Shown: one piece after another, positions 1 through 40,851 of the stretch
Numbering within the stretch: position 1 is the first letter of the stretch
How the letters are laid out: the number at the start of each line of letters is the position of its first letter
IMG/VR virus record: IMGVR_UViG_3300043449_001524
Span: 1-40,851 of that record
From: a virus
DNA: 40,851 nucleotides
Direction: 5' to 3' (one strand)
The notes under the pieces: generated by a model
What the model was told of the DNA's origin: nothing
Database searches by the model: none
The model's input: only the letters and a program-made list of their open reading frames with translations
Position numbers and translations under genes: made by a program

Positions 1-145
1 TTTCATTCCAGATCCAAACGAGGGGGTGGGGGTGGTGATCCCCATTCATTCGTGCATTCGGATTTTTCGGATTCTCTTCCCCCCTCTTTTTTAAAGAGGA
101 AGAGGAAGAGAAAGAGGAAGAGGAAGAGGGTTCGGTTTTGTTCGG
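1..145. repeat. Terminal direct repeat, left copy (circle junction)
   Basis: These 145 bases recur at 40707-40851 with one mismatch (C at 19, A at 40725). The gene crossing them stays open through both copies, so the contig closes into a circle of about 40,706 bp. The mismatch changes one codon from Val (this copy) to Phe (right copy). The repeat may be an assembly overlap of a circularly permuted or circular genome; a true short terminal redundancy cannot be excluded. Confidence 0.9.
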
Positions 146-535
146 ATTCCGTTCGGAGGTTTGTTCGGATTCCGTTCGGGACGAATTTGAAGCTCCAAAC
201 GGTGTCGCAGTGCCATATTTAGCTTTACGCGCTTCAGCACTCTTTTTACCGTTCTCTGATGCAGCGAGCAGAAAGCCCCAACGCTCGTTAGCACCCCTGA
301 CATACACTCCATCGTCCGAACGAACTGCGAACCCGAACCGAACCAAATCCGAACTAAGCGGAAGCCACTCGAACACGTCCGAAGGAATCAGCGACTTGTT
401 TTTCTTCCAGTAGCTTTGACCCAATTCCCAGAGACACGCGATCGCACCCACCGCTATGTGCTTTGGATGCACTGTAGTCATTGCTGCGAGTCTCGGATCG
501 GACCAAAACTCGTTGTCGAGATTGATGCGAGCCAT
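1..535 (-). CDS. Phage replisome organiser / replication initiation protein, N-terminal part (continues at right edge)
   Basis: The gene starts with ATG at 535, which overlaps the TAA of the upstream gene (TAATG), and runs off the left edge in frame. It continues at 40706-40393, giving a full product of about 282 aa. The N-terminal 90 residues (beginning MARINLDNEFWSDPRL) have the look of the winged-helix DNA-binding domain of phage replication-organiser proteins. A Lys/Ala-rich helix with GKKSAEARKAK follows, then a low-complexity Ser linker (about residues 134-146). The C-terminal part at the right edge carries the conserved Trp-Lys-Ala-Asp and LEGKY signature of phage replication initiators. 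By family it should bind the origin and recruit host helicase or helicase loader. Repeats inside this gene may be that origin. Confidence 0.85.
   Translation of the reverse strand, partial: MARINLDNEFWSDPRLAAMTTVHPKHIAVGAIACLWELGQSYWKKNKSLIPSDVFEWLPLSSDLVRFGFAVRSDDGVYVRGANERWGFLLAASENGKKSAEARKAKYGTATPFGASNSSRTESEQTSERNPNKTEPSSSSSFSSSSSLKKRGEENPKNPNARMNGDHHPHPLVWIWNE
86..179. repeat. Candidate replication origin: polypurine tract plus iterons inside the replication gene
   Basis: A 20-bp direct repeat, TTTGTTCGGATTCCGTTCGG, occurs at 137-156 and 160-179 (23-bp period). TTCGG occurs at 131, 141, 152, 164 and 175, about one helical turn apart. Next to it lies a strand-asymmetric polypurine stretch at 93-130. 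On the other side (316-354) six CGAAC words lie in the opposite orientation. Lambda-type phages carry their origin iterons within the initiator gene, so this arrangement suggests an origin. The alternative is repetitive coding for an Asn/Pro/Ser-rich linker. Confidence 0.5.
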
Positions 536-954
536 TAAAGCACCCCGCCGAACATATCGTACTGACCATTTCGCTCGGAATAGTGAACCAGTGTCGCGGC
601 CTCTTTCGGAGTTACTTTGACGCGTCCTTTTCCGTGGCAGTGCGGGCAGTCTTCAGTCTCCTCTTTCGGAGGATCGATTGGGAGCGCGTCGGTCGCCTCG
701 TAGATATATGCCGATCGTCCCGTGACACGACACGGCCTGGTGCCCACAATCCGGATGACACCCCTTCGTTCGAGTTCAGCGAACCTCGGTCCAATGTCGT
801 GACGCTGTTTGTTTAAGAAGTGCTCTTTCCAGGTTTCTCCCTGGGTGATCGGTCCATGATGAACGATCGCGTCGTACACTTCGAAACGACGTTTTGAGAG
901 AAGACCATTTTCTTGAATTGCGCGATATGCCGCAAGCGATGTTGCGCGTGGCAT
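535..954 (-). CDS. Winged-helix protein with one DnaJ-type zinc motif, first gene of replication operon
   Basis: This 139-aa protein has an N-terminal winged-helix-like region (about residues 10-90). It contains a helix-turn-helix segment around GPITQGETWKEH, a recognition-helix candidate GPRFAELERRGVIR and a beta wing. The C-terminal third has a single CPHCHGKG, the repeat unit of the DnaJ zinc domain; one copy alone has only two Cys and one His, so metal binding might need a dimer. It is the first gene of the leftward replication operon and its stop overlaps the start of the replisome organiser. It probably regulates DNA or acts as an accessory replication protein. Its ribosome binding site (GAGAG) lies in the stem at 964-997. 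Confidence 0.75.
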   Translation of the reverse strand: MPRATSLAAYRAIQENGLLSKRRFEVYDAIVHHGPITQGETWKEHFLNKQRHDIGPRFAELERRGVIRIVGTRPCRVTGRSAYIYEATDALPIDPPKEETEDCPHCHGKGRVKVTPKEAATLVHYSERNGQYDMFGGVL

Positions 955-997: not shown

Positions 998-1022
998 CGG
1001 GGAGAGTAGCTAACTCCCCCCG

Positions 1023-1120: not shown

Positions 1121-1210
1121 GGTCTGCTCAGGTCTACTTAGGTCTCGTCCGTTCTGAATAGTTCTTGAGCGGTCCAGAGAGATCCAGAGAGTTCTCCTCC
1201 GGTCCAATGT
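1121..1210. repeat. Nine-unit array with exact 10-bp period (GKTCY units)
   Basis: Nine consecutive 10-bp units each begin with a variant of G-[GTA]-T-C-[TC]: GGTCT at 1121, 1131 and 1141; GTTCT at 1151 and 1161; GGTCC at 1171; GATCC at 1181; GTTCT at 1191; GGTCC at 1201. The last five bases of each unit are not conserved. The phase is kept without slippage over 90 bp and no convincing gene covers the region. This fits an ordered binding array for a protein that loads head to tail, such as an excisionase or initiator. It lies about 200 bp from the attP candidate and 55 bp from the replication-operon operators. Confidence 0.7.
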
Positions 1211-1406
1211 GTCAAAGTGTTTTATTTTAGGAAAATTATTCGTTAGCGATTCATGCGTCGGGCGCGATCGCTGATTGTGACGAGAGTCACTGCCCACTCA
1301 CGATCGTCCCGACATTCCAACGTGATGAAGTTCCGCCCTGGTTCCTGGACTCCGGGGCGGTCAAAAAAAGCAGTTTTTCGAGCAAACAAGAAATTTCTTT
1401 TATTTA

Positions 1407-1430
1407 TTGGTAGACGCACAGGACTTAAAA
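1407..1430 (+). other. attP: Candidate attP core: tRNA-Leu D-arm to anticodon fragment
   Basis: Twenty-four bases beginning TTGGTAGACGCAC and ending AGGACTTAAAA match the D-loop, anticodon stem and UAA anticodon loop typical of bacterial tRNA-Leu. The match then stops (GAGTGCG follows), so the fragment has no 3' half and no acceptor stem. It sits 119 bp before the integrase start, where attP sites usually lie. The last 11 bases also occur in the phage's own tRNA-Leu. Inference: integration occurs in the anticodon arm of a host tRNA-Leu(UAA) gene. Confidence 0.65.
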
Positions 1431-1482
1431 GAGTGCGCCAAAATCTGTAACTAGCTGATTTCATTATATTCCACCATAAAAC

Positions 1483-1525
1483 TGGTAGGCGAATGGTAGA
1501 CGAATTTTCCATTGCCCACCTACCA
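1483..1525. repeat. Candidate integrase arm-type sites (TGGTAGRYG)
   Basis: TGGTAGGCG (1483-1491), TGGTAGACG (1494-1502) and the inverted copy TGGTAGGTG (1525-1517) lie between the attP candidate and int. The same word occurs in the core at 1408-1416. Repeats flanking a core are typical of integrase arm-binding sites. They also surround the int promoter/leader and could serve autoregulation. Confidence 0.45.
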
Positions 1526-1548
1526 AAATTCAGCTACAAGCTGCCGCC

Positions 1549-2808
1549 ATGAGTGGGCAAACTCGCAAAAATAAGGTTTCATCCAAAGATGGTCGCGTTC
1601 ATTTCCTCCCCAAAGGTCCGTGGGAAAAAGGTCGAAGATCCTTTTCGCTTCTTCGCGTGGAATGGAGAGATGGCAAGCGCCATTCCGAGTCATTCACTAA
1701 TCCCGAGATTCTGGATCTTAATCGGAGATGGGAAGACAAGCTCGTCAGCCTCGAAGACGGAAAAGCGGAACTGCTCAAACTGCGGGATACTCTTTACGCA
1801 AAAGCGAAAGAAGAACTGCTGAAAAATATGCATCGCGACAACATCGAGCTAATCGAGAAATTTATACGCGAGGTGATTAACCCAAAGGTGGACATTCTCC
1901 CCTGCTCCAGAGAAAGCGAAATCAATGCAGTTTGGCGCATCGGATCAATGATGGAAAAGTCGAGCCTCGTTCGCGCCTCGATTCATGAGATTCAGAGGCG
2001 GCTAAATGCAATCGAAACAGAGGGTGCTTTTAAGCATTGCTACAAAGCGTCAAGATCGCTTCTCAAATTCTGCGGACGATACAAAGACGCGGAGCAGCTT
2101 CGAGTCAAGAAATTCAACGACAGCGCCCCTCCGTATCTAACGATCGACCAGGTCAAAAAGCTCGTTGACTCGATCCCGAATGAAGTGTCCGAGGTCTATC
2201 GATTGATGCGCGAGCTGATCCTGATTTGTTTTAACCTCGGACTCCGGATCGGAGAAGCCCTGGCTCTTGAGAAGACCGACGTCGTTAAAAAGAACGGTAT
2301 TGTGATGGTCAAAGTTGAGCGCCAGCTCACTCGAACAACGGACGCAAATCCAGACGGAACCCGCGTCAGAGGCACTAAAAACCGACGGAATAGGATGGTC
2401 ATTCCACTGGACCGCGACGAGACATTAAAAGCCCTTGCCGCATGGCTCAAAGAGTATCCGAAAGTCGAGGATCGCGAGCGGTATCGATACAAGTCGTCAA
2501 AGCTAGTGCATGACCTCTGTGAAAGACTTTTCGTCCTGCGCGGTGGCGACCAGGAGTCTTCCGAGGCTGATGATTTTTTCTTCTCAGACGCGTCTATTCC
2601 GGACGCAGAGGAGCAGCGCGAGTACAAGGCAATGCATATGCTCCGCGCCTCTCACGCGGTCTATATCATCGAGAAAACCGGGAATGACGTGTTTGCTGCA
2701 AACCAGATCGGAGACAATCCCGAGGTAATGCGGAAGCACTACAGCGGCAAATTTAACACTATGCGTTCGATGGAAACTATGGCATCTCTATTGGAGCAGC
2801 GTTCCTAA
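1549..2808 (+). CDS. int: Tyrosine-family site-specific integrase
   Basis: This 419-aa protein has the expected order: an N-terminal arm-binding region (beta-rich, residues 15-50), a helical core-binding domain (about 95-185) and a C-terminal catalytic domain (195-410). Visible catalytic residues are R233 in GLRIGEALAL, K277 in the beta-hairpin TKNRRNR, H363/R366 in HMLRASHA and the nucleophile Y398 in RKHYSG. The usual second His/Trp of the LGH motif is replaced (IGDN, around D389), a variation seen in some phage integrases. It should integrate and, with an excisionase, excise the prophage at the attP just upstream. It is one of only two clear protein genes on the plus strand. The next feature downstream is a complete tRNA-Leu. 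Confidence 0.95.
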   Translation: MSGQTRKNKVSSKDGRVHFLPKGPWEKGRRSFSLLRVEWRDGKRHSESFTNPEILDLNRRWEDKLVSLEDGKAELLKLRDTLYAKAKEELLKNMHRDNIELIEKFIREVINPKVDILPCSRESEINAVWRIGSMMEKSSLVRASIHEIQRRLNAIETEGAFKHCYKASRSLLKFCGRYKDAEQLRVKKFNDSAPPYLTIDQVKKLVDSIPNEVSEVYRLMRELILICFNLGLRIGEALALEKTDVVKKNGIVMVKVERQLTRTTDANPDGTRVRGTKNRRNRMVIPLDRDETLKALAAWLKEYPKVEDRERYRYKSSKLVHDLCERLFVLRGGDQESSEADDFFFSDASIPDAEEQREYKAMHMLRASHAVYIIEKTGNDVFAANQIGDNPEVMRKHYSGKFNTMRSMETMASLLEQRS

Positions 2809-2818
2809 CTCTTGGTGG

Positions 2819-2907
2819 GCCGGGGTGGTGGAATCGGTAGACACAAAGGACTTAAAATCCTTCGGAGCGAAAGTTCTGTACGAGTTCGAGTCTCGTCCTC
2901 GGCACCA
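2819..2907 (+). tRNA. tRNA-Leu (anticodon UAA), CCA encoded
   Basis: The 89-nt cloverleaf is complete. It has a 7-bp acceptor stem (GCCGGGG with CCTCGGC, one G-U), a D-arm, an AAGGA/TCCTT anticodon stem with loop CTTAAAA, a long variable arm typical of Leu, a T-arm with TTCGAGT, discriminator A and encoded CCA. It starts 11 bp after int on the same strand. It shares the D-arm/anticodon region with the attP candidate but differs at several positions, so it is a separate, intact copy. It could replace the host tRNA-Leu(UAA) disrupted on integration. Confidence 0.93.
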
Positions 2908-3923: not shown

Positions 3924-4127
3924 TCATGTGTCGGAATTGCTCAAAACACCGGTCCTGATCGAAGCGATCCGACGGATCTCATCAATATGAACGAATTTGG
4001 AACGATCTCCTGGCCTCGACACAGTCTTTATTTTCCCTTTCCTTGCTGCTAATCGAACTGCGTTATAAGACGGATATCCGAGGATTTTTGCGACTTCGTA
4101 ATAGTTAAACAGTTGCTTAGTCATCAT
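3924..4127 (-). CDS. xis: Excisionase-like MerR-type helix-turn-helix protein
   Basis: This 67-aa protein has a helix-turn-helix with a wing: FNYYEVAKILGYPSYNAVRL, then RKGKIKTVSRPGDRSKFVHI and a short closing helix. The pattern is that of HTH_17/excisionase (MerR-like) proteins, which bend DNA at attachment sites and bias the integrase to excision. It lies in the leftward early operon, opposite to int and separate from it. The start may be either of two adjacent ATG codons (4127 or 4124). The 10-bp array at 1121-1210 is a candidate target. It could instead be a small transcriptional regulator. Confidence 0.6.
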   Translation of the reverse strand: MMTKQLFNYYEVAKILGYPSYNAVRLAARKGKIKTVSRPGDRSKFVHIDEIRRIASIRTGVLSNSDT

Positions 4128-5111: not shown

Positions 5112-5881
5112 TAGTTTTTTCTCCCTTTGCAGATGTTCCAGTACCCACACCACTTTTCGGAGCAGTACCAAGACCCCTCCGGAGCTGGCAGTGCGATGCC
5201 AGCAGTGATTCCCTTATGGACTTGATCAATCGAGTCGAGCAGCCAGTTATGATCCGAGTCCGTCACAACGCCTTCGGTCGCCTGGTATTCTGGTCCGAGC
5301 TTTATTGTAGGTTTCTTCAGAATGTCGAAGACGAATCCCTTGGCCTTCTTCCCACGAATCGCCTCATACGCGATCGAATACATCGCCGGTTGAACTGATC
5401 TTTCGACGACATATGAGCTGGCCCGGGCGCGAGTCGAGGTCTTTGTATCGCGAATGAATCCGTTAGCGTCTGTCAGATCGATCGTGCCACCGAGGTCGAA
5501 GTCACCGTCGAGTTCCAGAACAAACTCTTCCTGGACTGTTTCCGGCTGGATCGTCGGAGCGACGGTTTCAAAGTGCAGCCGCGCCAGTGCGACGGTCTGG
5601 TCTTTGAGTTCGCCGGGACTCTCGTCGTCTTCCAGAACGGTGTCCTTGATGTTCGCATCAAACGATTCCGATGCAACAGTGAGGATCTCGTCGATCGAGG
5701 CGGTCGCGCCCTGGATCTTCTTCACCATGTTCGCTGACACCGCTTTATCGACCGCCGTGCCGACAGTGAGAGCAGCCTTGGGAGGGATCTTAAGCCCCTT
5801 GATGTAGCGGAACTCGTACAACTTGCCGCACTTCAAATAGGAGTGCAGCGCCGACTGGTGGTATTTTGGTCTGTCACTCAT
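5111..5881 (-). CDS. PD-(D/E)XK exonuclease with probable 4Fe-4S cluster (RecB/Cas4-like), RecT partner
   Basis: This 256-aa protein shows the nuclease core: D135 in GGTIDL, D145-T-K147 as the D-x-K motif and Q164-P-A-M-Y168 as the QxxxY motif. One N-terminal Cys (C18) and three C-terminal Cys (C240, C245, C251) match the four-Cys iron-sulfur arrangement of AddB/Cas4-type nucleases. It should resect double-stranded ends to give single strands for RecT, whose gene follows with a 1-base overlap. The start at 5881 forms an ATGA overlap with the zinc-ribbon gene; the longer upstream frame covers that gene and is rejected. Confidence 0.88.
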   Translation of the reverse strand: MSDRPKYHQSALHSYLKCGKLYEFRYIKGLKIPPKAALTVGTAVDKAVSANMVKKIQGATASIDEILTVASESFDANIKDTVLEDDESPGELKDQTVALARLHFETVAPTIQPETVQEEFVLELDGDFDLGGTIDLTDANGFIRDTKTSTRARASSYVVERSVQPAMYSIAYEAIRGKKAKGFVFDILKKPTIKLGPEYQATEGVVTDSDHNWLLDSIDQVHKGITAGIALPAPEGSWYCSEKWCGYWNICKGRKN

Positions 5882-6198: not shown

Positions 6199-6537
6199 TT
6201 GGAAAAGAAAATATCTTTATCCGAGCACTTTCGGAGCCAGATGATCAGAATCCGCAAAGATCGTGGACTGACCCAGGAGCAGCTCGCTGATGCGATCGGT
6301 GTCCGGAAGCTCCAGATTTTTCGGTATGAAAATGGTCAAGCTGGTGTGGATCTCGCCCTGGTCGATCGGATCGCTGAAGTGCTCCAGGTTTCAGTCGAGG
6401 AGCTTCTGTTTCAAGCTCCGACTCCGGAACAGACAGAGATTATCGCATGGGTGCTAAAAGCCGATCCGGAAAACGCTAAGACACTACGAAATTTCATTGT
6501 GCCGTTTATGGAAAAGGCGATCAAACTTCAGAAATAG
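6199..6537 (+). CDS. cI-like XRE-family repressor
   Basis: The 112-aa protein has an N-terminal XRE helix-turn-helix (about residues 8-63). It includes RGLTQEQLADAIGVRKLQIF, a recognition helix followed by RYENGQAGVDLALVDRIAEVL, and a short helical C-terminus for dimerisation. There is no S24 peptidase domain, so RecA-driven self-cleavage is not expected; induction would need another route such as an antirepressor. The start is TTG 6199, with GAGG seven bases upstream. It is transcribed away from the recombination operon and is the likely lysogeny repressor. Confidence 0.85.
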   Translation: MEKKISLSEHFRSQMIRIRKDRGLTQEQLADAIGVRKLQIFRYENGQAGVDLALVDRIAEVLQVSVEELLFQAPTPEQTEIIAWVLKADPENAKTLRNFIVPFMEKAIKLQK

Positions 6538-18453: not shown

Positions 18454-18535
18454 TGGCGGGGATGACAGGAATTGAACCTGCACCTCTCGCGAATGGCCCC
18501 TTAGCGCGAGTGCTCTTCCGTTATGCTACACCCCC
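18454..18535 (-). tRNA. tRNA-like gene with oversized anticodon loop, CCA encoded (isotype undetermined)
   Basis: The minus strand folds as a tRNA. It has acceptor GGGGGTG/CATCCCC (one G-U), a weak D-arm with GG in the loop, a perfect T-arm (GCAGG TTCAATT CCTGT), discriminator G and encoded CCA. The anticodon arm is abnormal: CTCGCG/CGCGAG forms a 6-bp stem around a 13-nt loop (CTAAGGGGCCATT), so no standard anticodon can be read. Outside it, TTTGTGGC and GCCACAAA would pair 8 more bp and bury the CCA. It lies between the tail tube and chaperone genes on the same strand. It could be a degenerate tRNA, an unusual decoder or an RNA processing element. Confidence 0.7.
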
Positions 18536-20130: not shown

Positions 20131-20730
20131 TCAAATCGTTTTTTCGGTTTCCGGCTCCGGTTCAAAGGGACTCGGAATGTTTGCGGGTAGTTCTAAATTG
20201 TTTTCGATTGTCTTAATGACGTAGTCTACTTTTTCAAACAGAGCGTGTAGATCTGCCTGAACATCGACTAAGATCCGCCATTCGTTTCTTTGAGAGGCGG
20301 CTTCGTCTTCAATGAAACGATAACTTTTTGCGTAAATGTGAGCCCATTCCCCATAATAGTCGTCAAGTTTTAGATTCAAACCAACCATTTCAGGATCAGG
20401 ATTTAAGATTTGAAGGACGCTCTCTGCTAGTTGATGGCGATGCGGCCTGGTCGACGTCCAGATATCTAGTTGTAATGAAACTTCATAGATTCCAAAAATC
20501 TTTGTGATCGTCTTTTGCGGATCTGATCCGGTCGTGCGATCAACTTTCTTCACAACATATGGCGAACCAGTGAGAAGTTTTGGATCGCGAATAAAAATGC
20601 TCATTGCCGGATACTGAAGTTTTTGACTTGGAGCCGGAAAGCCCTCGATGACACTATTCAGTGCAGGAATCCCTGCCTTGAAATAGGCGATAAGAGCCTT
20701 GGATAGTGCTTCGGTCATCCCTTTAGCCAA
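20131..20730 (-). CDS. Probable tail terminator / neck protein
   Basis: This 199-aa protein lies between the gp10-like protein and the sheath, the usual place of the tail terminator. Its middle has alternating strands (SLQLDIWTSTRPHRHQLAES) seen in terminator proteins that cap the tube and sheath. The C-terminus is acidic and Pro-rich. The start is uncertain: TTG 20730 has AGGAG ten bases upstream and overlaps the previous stop, while ATG 20718 is an alternative. Confidence 0.65.
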   Translation of the reverse strand: MAKGMTEALSKALIAYFKAGIPALNSVIEGFPAPSQKLQYPAMSIFIRDPKLLTGSPYVVKKVDRTTGSDPQKTITKIFGIYEVSLQLDIWTSTRPHRHQLAESVLQILNPDPEMVGLNLKLDDYYGEWAHIYAKSYRFIEDEAASQRNEWRILVDVQADLHALFEKVDYVIKTIENNLELPANIPSPFEPEPETEKTI

Positions 20731-21187
20731 ATTTCAGATACTCCTGTCTTATGTTGTCGATGATTTGTGGAATCCTGTCCTCCAGGATGTGCCTCGGAGC
20801 GATCCCCTCGCGAGCGATCTTCTCTTGTGTGTATTTTGCGAGCGCCCACACCTGGTCGGAATATCCCGTTTCAGGCTGCGACGGATCTTGTAGGACGCGC
20901 TTTGCCCATGCCAAAAGAGGTCGAATAGGTGGAGTGAAGGGACGCGCTCCATATTCAATAATAGCCGCGTGTGGAGCATAGTTTCCAAGAACTGCGCCGA
21001 ACTCCTCCTCGGTAAACGACCAGGACTGAGCGTAGAGTCCAGTGTCCACAGGCGAAGCTTCAACGAGCATTGGGATCGATTTTGCGATCCCGAGGACAGT
21101 AGCATGGCGAAGATGATCGATCTGCGACTTTGTGAAGACCTTTAACTCCTCAACCAGCTCTTGCATATTGACAGTTTTGGATTTCAT
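20723..21187 (-). CDS. HK97 gp10-like tail completion protein
   Basis: The 154-aa protein carries the family pattern SPVDTGLYAQSWSF (SPVDTGxLxxS), GNYAPHAAIIEYGARPF and a Pro-rich PPIRPLLAWAKR. These proteins join head and tail at the neck. The start overlaps the stop of the preceding tagged accessory gene (ATGA). Confidence 0.88.
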   Translation of the reverse strand: MKSKTVNMQELVEELKVFTKSQIDHLRHATVLGIAKSIPMLVEASPVDTGLYAQSWSFTEEEFGAVLGNYAPHAAIIEYGARPFTPPIRPLLAWAKRVLQDPSQPETGYSDQVWALAKYTQEKIAREGIAPRHILEDRIPQIIDNIRQEYLKFG

Positions 21188-39935: not shown

Positions 39936-40396
39936 TTGATCCTCGCAGCGGCATCGATTTTTTTTGTGAGTAAAGTGAGGTCGTAGTCTTTTCCCGGGAA
40001 TGGAATCTCCATCCGCTTTAGCGCGGCGCGAAGTGCATCGACATGACCTGCGAGCTTTCCGTCGAGCTTTTCAATTGCCCACTGGATCGCTCCGCGCATT
40101 TCCTGATTTGCATCGACGACCTGGCCAAGAGCGTAGAACCAATCTCCAAGGCGTTTAGCCAGCGCATAGTCGTAGTCGAGGTTGCCCGCGATTCTGCCCT
40201 CGCAGTATGCCCTGATCGCTTGTTGCATCGGCTGATATGGCTTCGGTCTGATCGTATCCGCAGTGTCAGCGAATCGGATCGCCTCGAACATGATCCATTC
40301 GTCTTGGGTGCAATGTCCGGATCTCCATGCCGCGAACAAGTCGCCGCCTTCCAGGTTAAAGTTCGGGATTGTTTCAATTGCGTTAGCTTGATTCAT
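39932..40396 (-). CDS. Unknown replication-operon protein
   Basis: The 154-aa protein is helical, with TQDEWIMFEAIRFADTADTI, LAKRLGDWFYALGQV and RGAIQWAIEKLDGKLAGHVD segments. I recognise no family. It is coupled at both ends by ATGA, to the replisome organiser upstream and rusA downstream. A role in replication, such as helicase loading, is possible by position only. Confidence 0.7.
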   Translation of the reverse strand: MNQANAIETIPNFNLEGGDLFAAWRSGHCTQDEWIMFEAIRFADTADTIRPKPYQPMQQAIRAYCEGRIAGNLDYDYALAKRLGDWFYALGQVVDANQEMRGAIQWAIEKLDGKLAGHVDALRAALKRMEIPFPGKDYDLTLLTKKIDAAARIK

Positions 40397-40851
40397 TGTG
40401 CGGCTTCTTCCTGCTCCAGCATGCGGTGGAGCTTTTCAATTTCAGGGTTGATAAGTTTTCCGGTCTTTGTGTTGCGGTCGCTGTATTTGCCTTCGAGCAC
40501 CCGGAAGTGCGTCTCGGGCTGAACGAGGAAGTCGAGGTCGGCTTTCCAGCCGCGATTGTTGTCACCGCGACAAAAGCTCGATGCGGCGATCTTTTTGACG
40601 ATCTCAGTCCAGTAAGTAGGGTCCGGCTTTTCGTTCCACCTGGTCCTCGCGTAGACCAACCTTTGCCCCGAACACTCCAGAGCCTCGGGTTGATCGTGCG
40701 CTTTGTTTTCATTCCAGATCCAAAAGAGGGGGTGGGGGTGGTGATCCCCATTCATTCGTGCATTCGGATTTTTCGGATTCTCTTCCCCCCTCTTTTTTAA
40801 AGAGGAAGAGGAAGAGAAAGAGGAAGAGGAAGAGGGTTCGGTTTTGTTCGG
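40393..40851 (-). CDS. Phage replisome organiser, C-terminal part (continues from left edge)
   Basis: This frame is open to the right edge and is in phase with the N-terminal part at 1-535 through the shared repeat. The C-terminal domain includes KIAASSFCRGDNNRGWKADL (S-x-F ... GWKADLDFL) and RVLEGKYSDR, a signature of phage replication initiators. The Met at 40755 is internal and not the start. The full protein is about 282 aa. Confidence 0.85.
   Translation of the reverse strand, partial: PNKTEPSSSSSFSSSSSLKKRGEENPKNPNARMNGDHHPHPLFWIWNENKAHDQPEALECSGQRLVYARTRWNEKPDPTYWTEIVKKIAASSFCRGDNNRGWKADLDFLVQPETHFRVLEGKYSDRNTKTGKLINPEIEKLHRMLEQEEAAQ
40707..40851. repeat. Terminal direct repeat, right copy
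   Basis: Same 145 bases as 1-145, with A at 40725 in place of C. See the left copy for interpretation. Confidence 0.9.

Follow-up and report, generated by a model that had tools for sequence, protein, structure and literature searches.

In phage lambda, Xis loads head to tail on the sites X1, X1.5 and X2, which lie about one turn apart near attP. Sites of recombination directionality factors (RDFs) are direct repeats spaced by one helical turn (PMC7498355), and BldC, Xis and RdfS are all bound head to tail on direct repeats about one turn apart (PMC5859096, PMC11963761, PMC7498355). Head-to-tail binding to direct repeats has been described for BldC (PMC5859096), RdfS occupies about 10 bp per protomer, and the filaments seen in crystals of P2 Cox and of RdfS are left-handed superhelices (PMC11963761). 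The closest working model for the locus described here is Apl of phage 186, a dual-purpose RDF and lysis-lysogeny regulator, for which pR-pL contains seven sites and attP five, spaced 10-11 bp apart, and which requires three adjacent sites for efficient binding (PMC7498355).

Here, we analysed an IMG/VR virus record (source DNA of 40,851 nt, the whole of which is referred to as the window) that harbours an array of nine consecutive 10-bp units of the form G[GTA]TC[TC]NNNNN (Table 1). The array is real and strictly phased, and its period lies far above chance. Its units read, in order, GGTCTGCTCA GGTCTACTTA GGTCTCGTCC GTTCTGAATA GTTCTTGAGC GGTCCAGAGA GATCCAGAGA GTTCTCCTCC GGTCCAATGT, exactly as a first-pass annotation of the sequence had claimed. 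They share the consensus G[G/T/a]TC[T/C]NN[A/T]N[A/C] with clear conservation in the first five positions only; the A or T found in column 8 of all nine units is a weak, post-hoc feature. The motif G[AGT]TC[CT] forms a run of nine at period 10, and no run of more than two was found elsewhere in the 40.9-kb record (periods 5-30, both strands) once the harmonics of the array itself at 20 and 30 bp are set aside. Motif-free column information over nine units reached 11.2 bits at position 1115, compared to a maximum of 7.05 in 60 dinucleotide-preserving shuffles of the whole record. The shuffles never attained the periodicity of the array, which the first-pass annotation had regarded as unlikely in non-coding DNA without selection. 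The array differs from a simple tandem repeat, with Tandem Repeats Finder picking up only short fragments of it, and its period of 10 is not divisible by 3, which rules out a coding repeat. No RNA structure was found at the array, where the fold is no better than that of shuffles (z about 0). Judging from the predicted fold of the candidate protein and from the analogy to the systems above, we consider it likely that a small winged helix-turn-helix (wHTH) protein uses the array as a cooperative operator, with the product of 3924-4127 as the most likely candidate. This protein would serve both as RDF and as transcription regulator.

Table 1 Features of the window around the phased array and their basis
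Feature	Position	Strand	Basis
Nine direct-repeat units of 10 bp, G[GTA]TC[TC]NNNNN, in one array; operator function with cooperative binding proposed	1121..1210	+	Repeats, shuffles, relative
Putative attP core ATTGGTAGACGCACAGGACTTAAAAGA	1406..1432	+	26/27 bases same in L127, same place upstream of int
Tandem pair of integrase arm-type-like sites TGGTAGNCG with 11-bp spacing (1483, 1494)	1483..1504	+	Conserved in L127
Inverted arm-type-like site (CCTACCAAAA on +)	1519..1528	-	Conserved in L127
Tyrosine integrase	1549..2808	+	PF00589 5e-8; phrog_1; 59% identical L127 homologue
tRNA-Leu(UAA), complete, directly after int	2819..2907	+	ARAGORN, Rfam; same position and anticodon in L127
Small wHTH protein encoded just downstream of recT; candidate RDF/regulator and proposed binder of the array	3924..4127	-	AlphaFold fold, weak HTH_17
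139-aa protein, first gene of leftward replication operon	535..954	-	phrog_1123, function not known
Replication initiator, N-terminal part, continues across record ends to 40396	1..535	-	phrog_19658, phrog_345
Replication initiator, remainder; overlaps 145-bp end repeat	40396..40851	-	End-repeat comparison
Terminator-like stem-loop between array and replication operon	998..1022	-	Consensus match only
CI/RstR-like HTH repressor; promoter region without array motif	6199..6537	+	Profile matches, motif scan

The system is of a known kind, and the array stands out mainly for its length and strict phase. With 186 Apl it has in common multiple direct repeats at 10-11 bp, placed at attP and, putatively, in a promoter region, a short conserved part and at least three adjacent sites (PMC7498355), but its spacing is strictly 10 bp, its nine units form one array with the motif GGTCY between the replication operon and attP, and the fold of the candidate protein is BldC/Pukovnik-Xis-like. 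The likeness to BldC, RdfS and Pukovnik Xis lies in this predicted fold and in the 9-10 bp occupied per protomer on direct repeats (PMC5859096, PMC11963761), while the binder in the window is a predicted one and its sequence identity to these proteins is low (18-24%). A multifunctional wHTH RDF that acts at att and promoter sites and forms a left-handed filament is known from P2 Cox (PMC11963761), yet the fold match of our candidate to a P2 DNA-binding protein is weak (4lhf, Z 5.5). The first-pass annotation had remarked that nine units at 10 bp would trace a left-handed spiral, a geometry that fits the crystal filaments of P2 Cox and RdfS (PMC11963761). Unlike lambda with its three sites, the window has nine, and these are located further from the core.

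The array sits to the left of the putative attP core of this tyrosine-integrase element, on the P-arm side, and 195 bp separate the two, so that its earlier description as lying beside attP is adequate, with the core itself being our inference. For an RDF site this is a rather long distance. The core resembles only the part of tRNA-Leu(UAA) from the D-loop to the anticodon loop and contains the anticodon loop CTTAAAA, as does its counterpart in the relative L127 introduced below (2513-2539), in which a tRNA-Leu(UAA) (1009-1084) likewise follows int. In tRNA-dependent lysogeny, as described by Guerrero-Bustamante and Hatfull in 2024, integration disrupts the host tRNA without restoring it, with mycobacteriophage Gaia and its tRNA-Leu(CAA) downstream of int as a precedent (PMC10865867). 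Both phages appear, from their gene and site order, to have the anatomy of this type of lysogeny (PMC10865867), and the arrangement would constitute a further case of it. The tRNA of L127 (1009-1084, anticodon UAA) comprises only 76 nt and is devoid of the long variable arm that a tRNA-Leu should have; it could be a divergent tRNA or one that is charged differently.

A comparison of the locus in related phages, proposed in the first-pass annotation as a check on conserved phase, was possible with L127 (IMGVR_UViG_3300020215_000081), which was found by a terminase search and is 73% identical to the window in its terminase and 59% in its integrase. Synteny with the window extends across its entire 44-kb record, and L127 shares the int-tRNA-Leu(UAA) pair, the attP core and the TGGTAGNCG sites. 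In this sole relative found, period 10 is kept, and an absence of conservation was not seen. L127 possesses two arrays: array A (5557-5590, minus strand; GGTCTGCGTG GGTCTGCATG GGTCTGTGTG AGTCA) lies about 150 bp upstream of rep and shares its orientation relative to this gene with the window array, and array B (2690-2714, plus strand; GGTCTGAGTG GGTCTCGGTG GGTCG) is inverted and lies about 150 bp from the attP core. GGTC triples occur in L127 at period 10 only (periods 6-25 scanned), with two observed against 0.0125 expected per shuffle. A weight matrix built from the window units missed both arrays, as it over-weights the variable half of the unit; they were found with the anchor pattern. With 3-4 units in array A and three in array B, they are shorter than the nine of the window, and these numbers fit the minimum of three adjacent sites known for Apl. 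Direct repeats 10-11 bp apart with at least three adjacent units, as in RDF arrays, are thus present in both phages, at exactly 10 bp in each. Arrays A and B are separated by some 3 kb of cargo that includes a gene for an NlpC/P60 protein; the window is free of this cargo and has a single array between rep and attP.

The two arrays of L127 indicate that the period is conserved and that the array belongs both to the promoter region of the replication gene and to attP. At the level of sequence, it is conserved at both places in one relative. The link to attP drawn in the first-pass annotation therefore stands only in part: array B lies near the attP of L127, but array A tracks the replication gene and the array is not purely an attP element. 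A use in the promoter region is suggested by the position of array A upstream of rep and by the 167 bp between the window array and the start of the 139-aa gene (954), the first of the replication operon, while no sigma-70-like promoters were recognised near the window array or the L127 arrays. A counterpoint to the RDF reading is that the array near attP in L127 is inverted and has three units, in what is one relative only.

But, which protein would bind such an array? The first-pass annotation had named three candidates, of which the small wHTH protein of 66-68 aa encoded at 3924-4127 is the one that we retain. Its gene directly follows recT in both phages, and each element encodes a small wHTH protein of putative RDF type, recognised by fold in the window and by HTH_17 in L127. 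The L127 gene (G001 20663-20824) matches HTH_17 (PF12728, E 4e-10) as well as TIGR01764, the latter below the curated cut-off (E 2e-5). By sequence, the protein of the window gives only a weak HTH_17 match (E 0.15) and is 29% identical to its L127 counterpart over a short stretch. Its AlphaFold model (pLDDT 84) adopts a beta-HTH-wing-helix fold, for which the best matches among solved structures (VIA Z) were BldC on DNA (8.5 and 8.1), Pukovnik Xis (8.0), RdfS (6.8) and the GIsul2 excisionase (6.7). Generic MerR proteins follow close behind, so that the fold narrows the function without proving it. The candidate thus keeps its place as a predicted binder of the array through its predicted Xis/BldC/RdfS fold and the excisionase-family gene at the same place in L127. 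The integrase, also proposed as binder, was not supported, as its arm-type candidates TGGTAGNCG differ from the array. The 139-aa protein was set aside: a relative of it in L126 has no array upstream, and L127 is without a clear homologue. Its structural model is poor (pLDDT 63). The homologue in L126 (4995-5414, 54% identity) adjoins a different integrase in an unrelated phage.

We infer from fold and analogy that the wHTH protein would bind cooperatively, bend the DNA and affect both excision and transcription. One protomer per unit would read the GGTCT/GTTCT-like bases, with about one protomer for each turn of the helix in a head-to-tail stack. Nine units might give rise to a nucleoprotein filament some 90 bp long, with the DNA bent on the P-arm side. 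From its position next to attP, the filament could tip the integrase toward excision over integration, and from its position upstream of the leftward replication operon it could also tune that promoter region and possibly int. More speculatively, and with considerable doubt on our side, a single filament of nine wHTH protomers between the promoter region of the replication operon and attP might couple excision to the onset of replication, while in the relative, in which cargo lies between two smaller arrays, one switch might have become two.

Alternatively, a CI/RstR-like repressor (6199-6537), or some other regulator of the phage, might use the array to control the divergent replication operon and int, in which case recombination would not be involved. 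We regard this as unlikely, though it is the best of the alternatives: the array has the leftward replication operon on one side and int on the other, array A of L127 is found 150 bp upstream of rep and far from attP, and the repressor is conserved in both phages, but the array motif is absent from the divergent region at the repressor's own promoter in both phages and L127 has a second array near attP. CI-type repressors, moreover, usually bind dyads rather than long direct-repeat arrays.

The replication initiator gene has phased repeats of its own, with GTTCGG/CCGAAC repeats around 131-180 and 309-385 of the window and CCGGTT-like repeats at the matching place in rep of L127. These are probably origin iterons, repeats inside the initiator coding sequence being a common origin layout. 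That the array itself consists of initiator iterons, either as an auxiliary part of the origin or as an autoregulatory element upstream of the replication operon, we deem improbable. The array adjoins the replication operon in both phages and some of its units read GTTCT; however, the in-gene repeats of the window (GTTCGG) do not match the array (GGTCY). As the in-gene iterons differ between the two phages while the upstream arrays stay GGTCT in both, iterons and arrays do not change together, and the second array of L127 lies near attP, 3 kb from rep.

A functionless remnant of a decaying tandem duplication is very improbable, even though most period-10 GNTC arrays in viral contigs are simple tandem repeats, because conservation is confined to the same 4-5 bases in every unit, with the remaining ones close to random, and because a phage whose integrase is 59% identical shows this anchor and period again at corresponding places. 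Least probable of all are arm-type sites of the integrase at attP, which are indeed direct repeats near the core and would suit an array on the P-arm side, but a different repeat, TGGTAGNCG, which has no sequence in common with the GGTCY array, occupies the P' side of the core in both phages, and one L127 array lies 3 kb from attP.

Most likely, to return to the RDF reading, the array is thus a real, conserved and phased protein-binding array of RDF type with a predicted binder. It would represent an unusually clean, long and strictly phased operator of excisionase type and, with its period kept while half of each unit varies, a good substrate for studying DNA recognition by head-to-tail wHTH filaments. 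Taken together, the two genomes further suggest how one operator may serve both recombination and early gene control.

Several observations were made in passing. A dyad, GAACATCAATTGTTC, at 1052-1066 between the array and the replication operon is a possible repressor operator. The strong terminator-like stem on the minus strand upstream of the replication operon (Table 1) suggests antitermination or a leader. The ends of the record (1-145 and 40707-40851) repeat 145 bp with one mismatch, and the replication initiator gene spans the join. A second tRNA-like gene (18457-18535, minus strand; 47.6 bits) was detected by Rfam and is absent from the ARAGORN list.

In wider searches with the integrase, the exonuclease and the 139-aa protein, only one close relative was found in viral_contigs and none in genome_contigs, so that no host or attB was located in this way. 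Twenty other terminase relatives were found, and the array was absent from the seven of these records that were searched. In pattern scans of viral_contigs (GNTC x6, GKTCY x5), most hits were either simple repeats or repeats located within replication genes. A few anchored arrays with a 10-bp period, a fixed GNTC anchor and a variable remainder are intergenic or nearly so (L089 2997-3056, L098 7397-7456, L025 269-328, L007 5251-5310 and L117 5358-5447); we made no tie between them and the system of the window, and they are possibly similar operators in unrelated phages.
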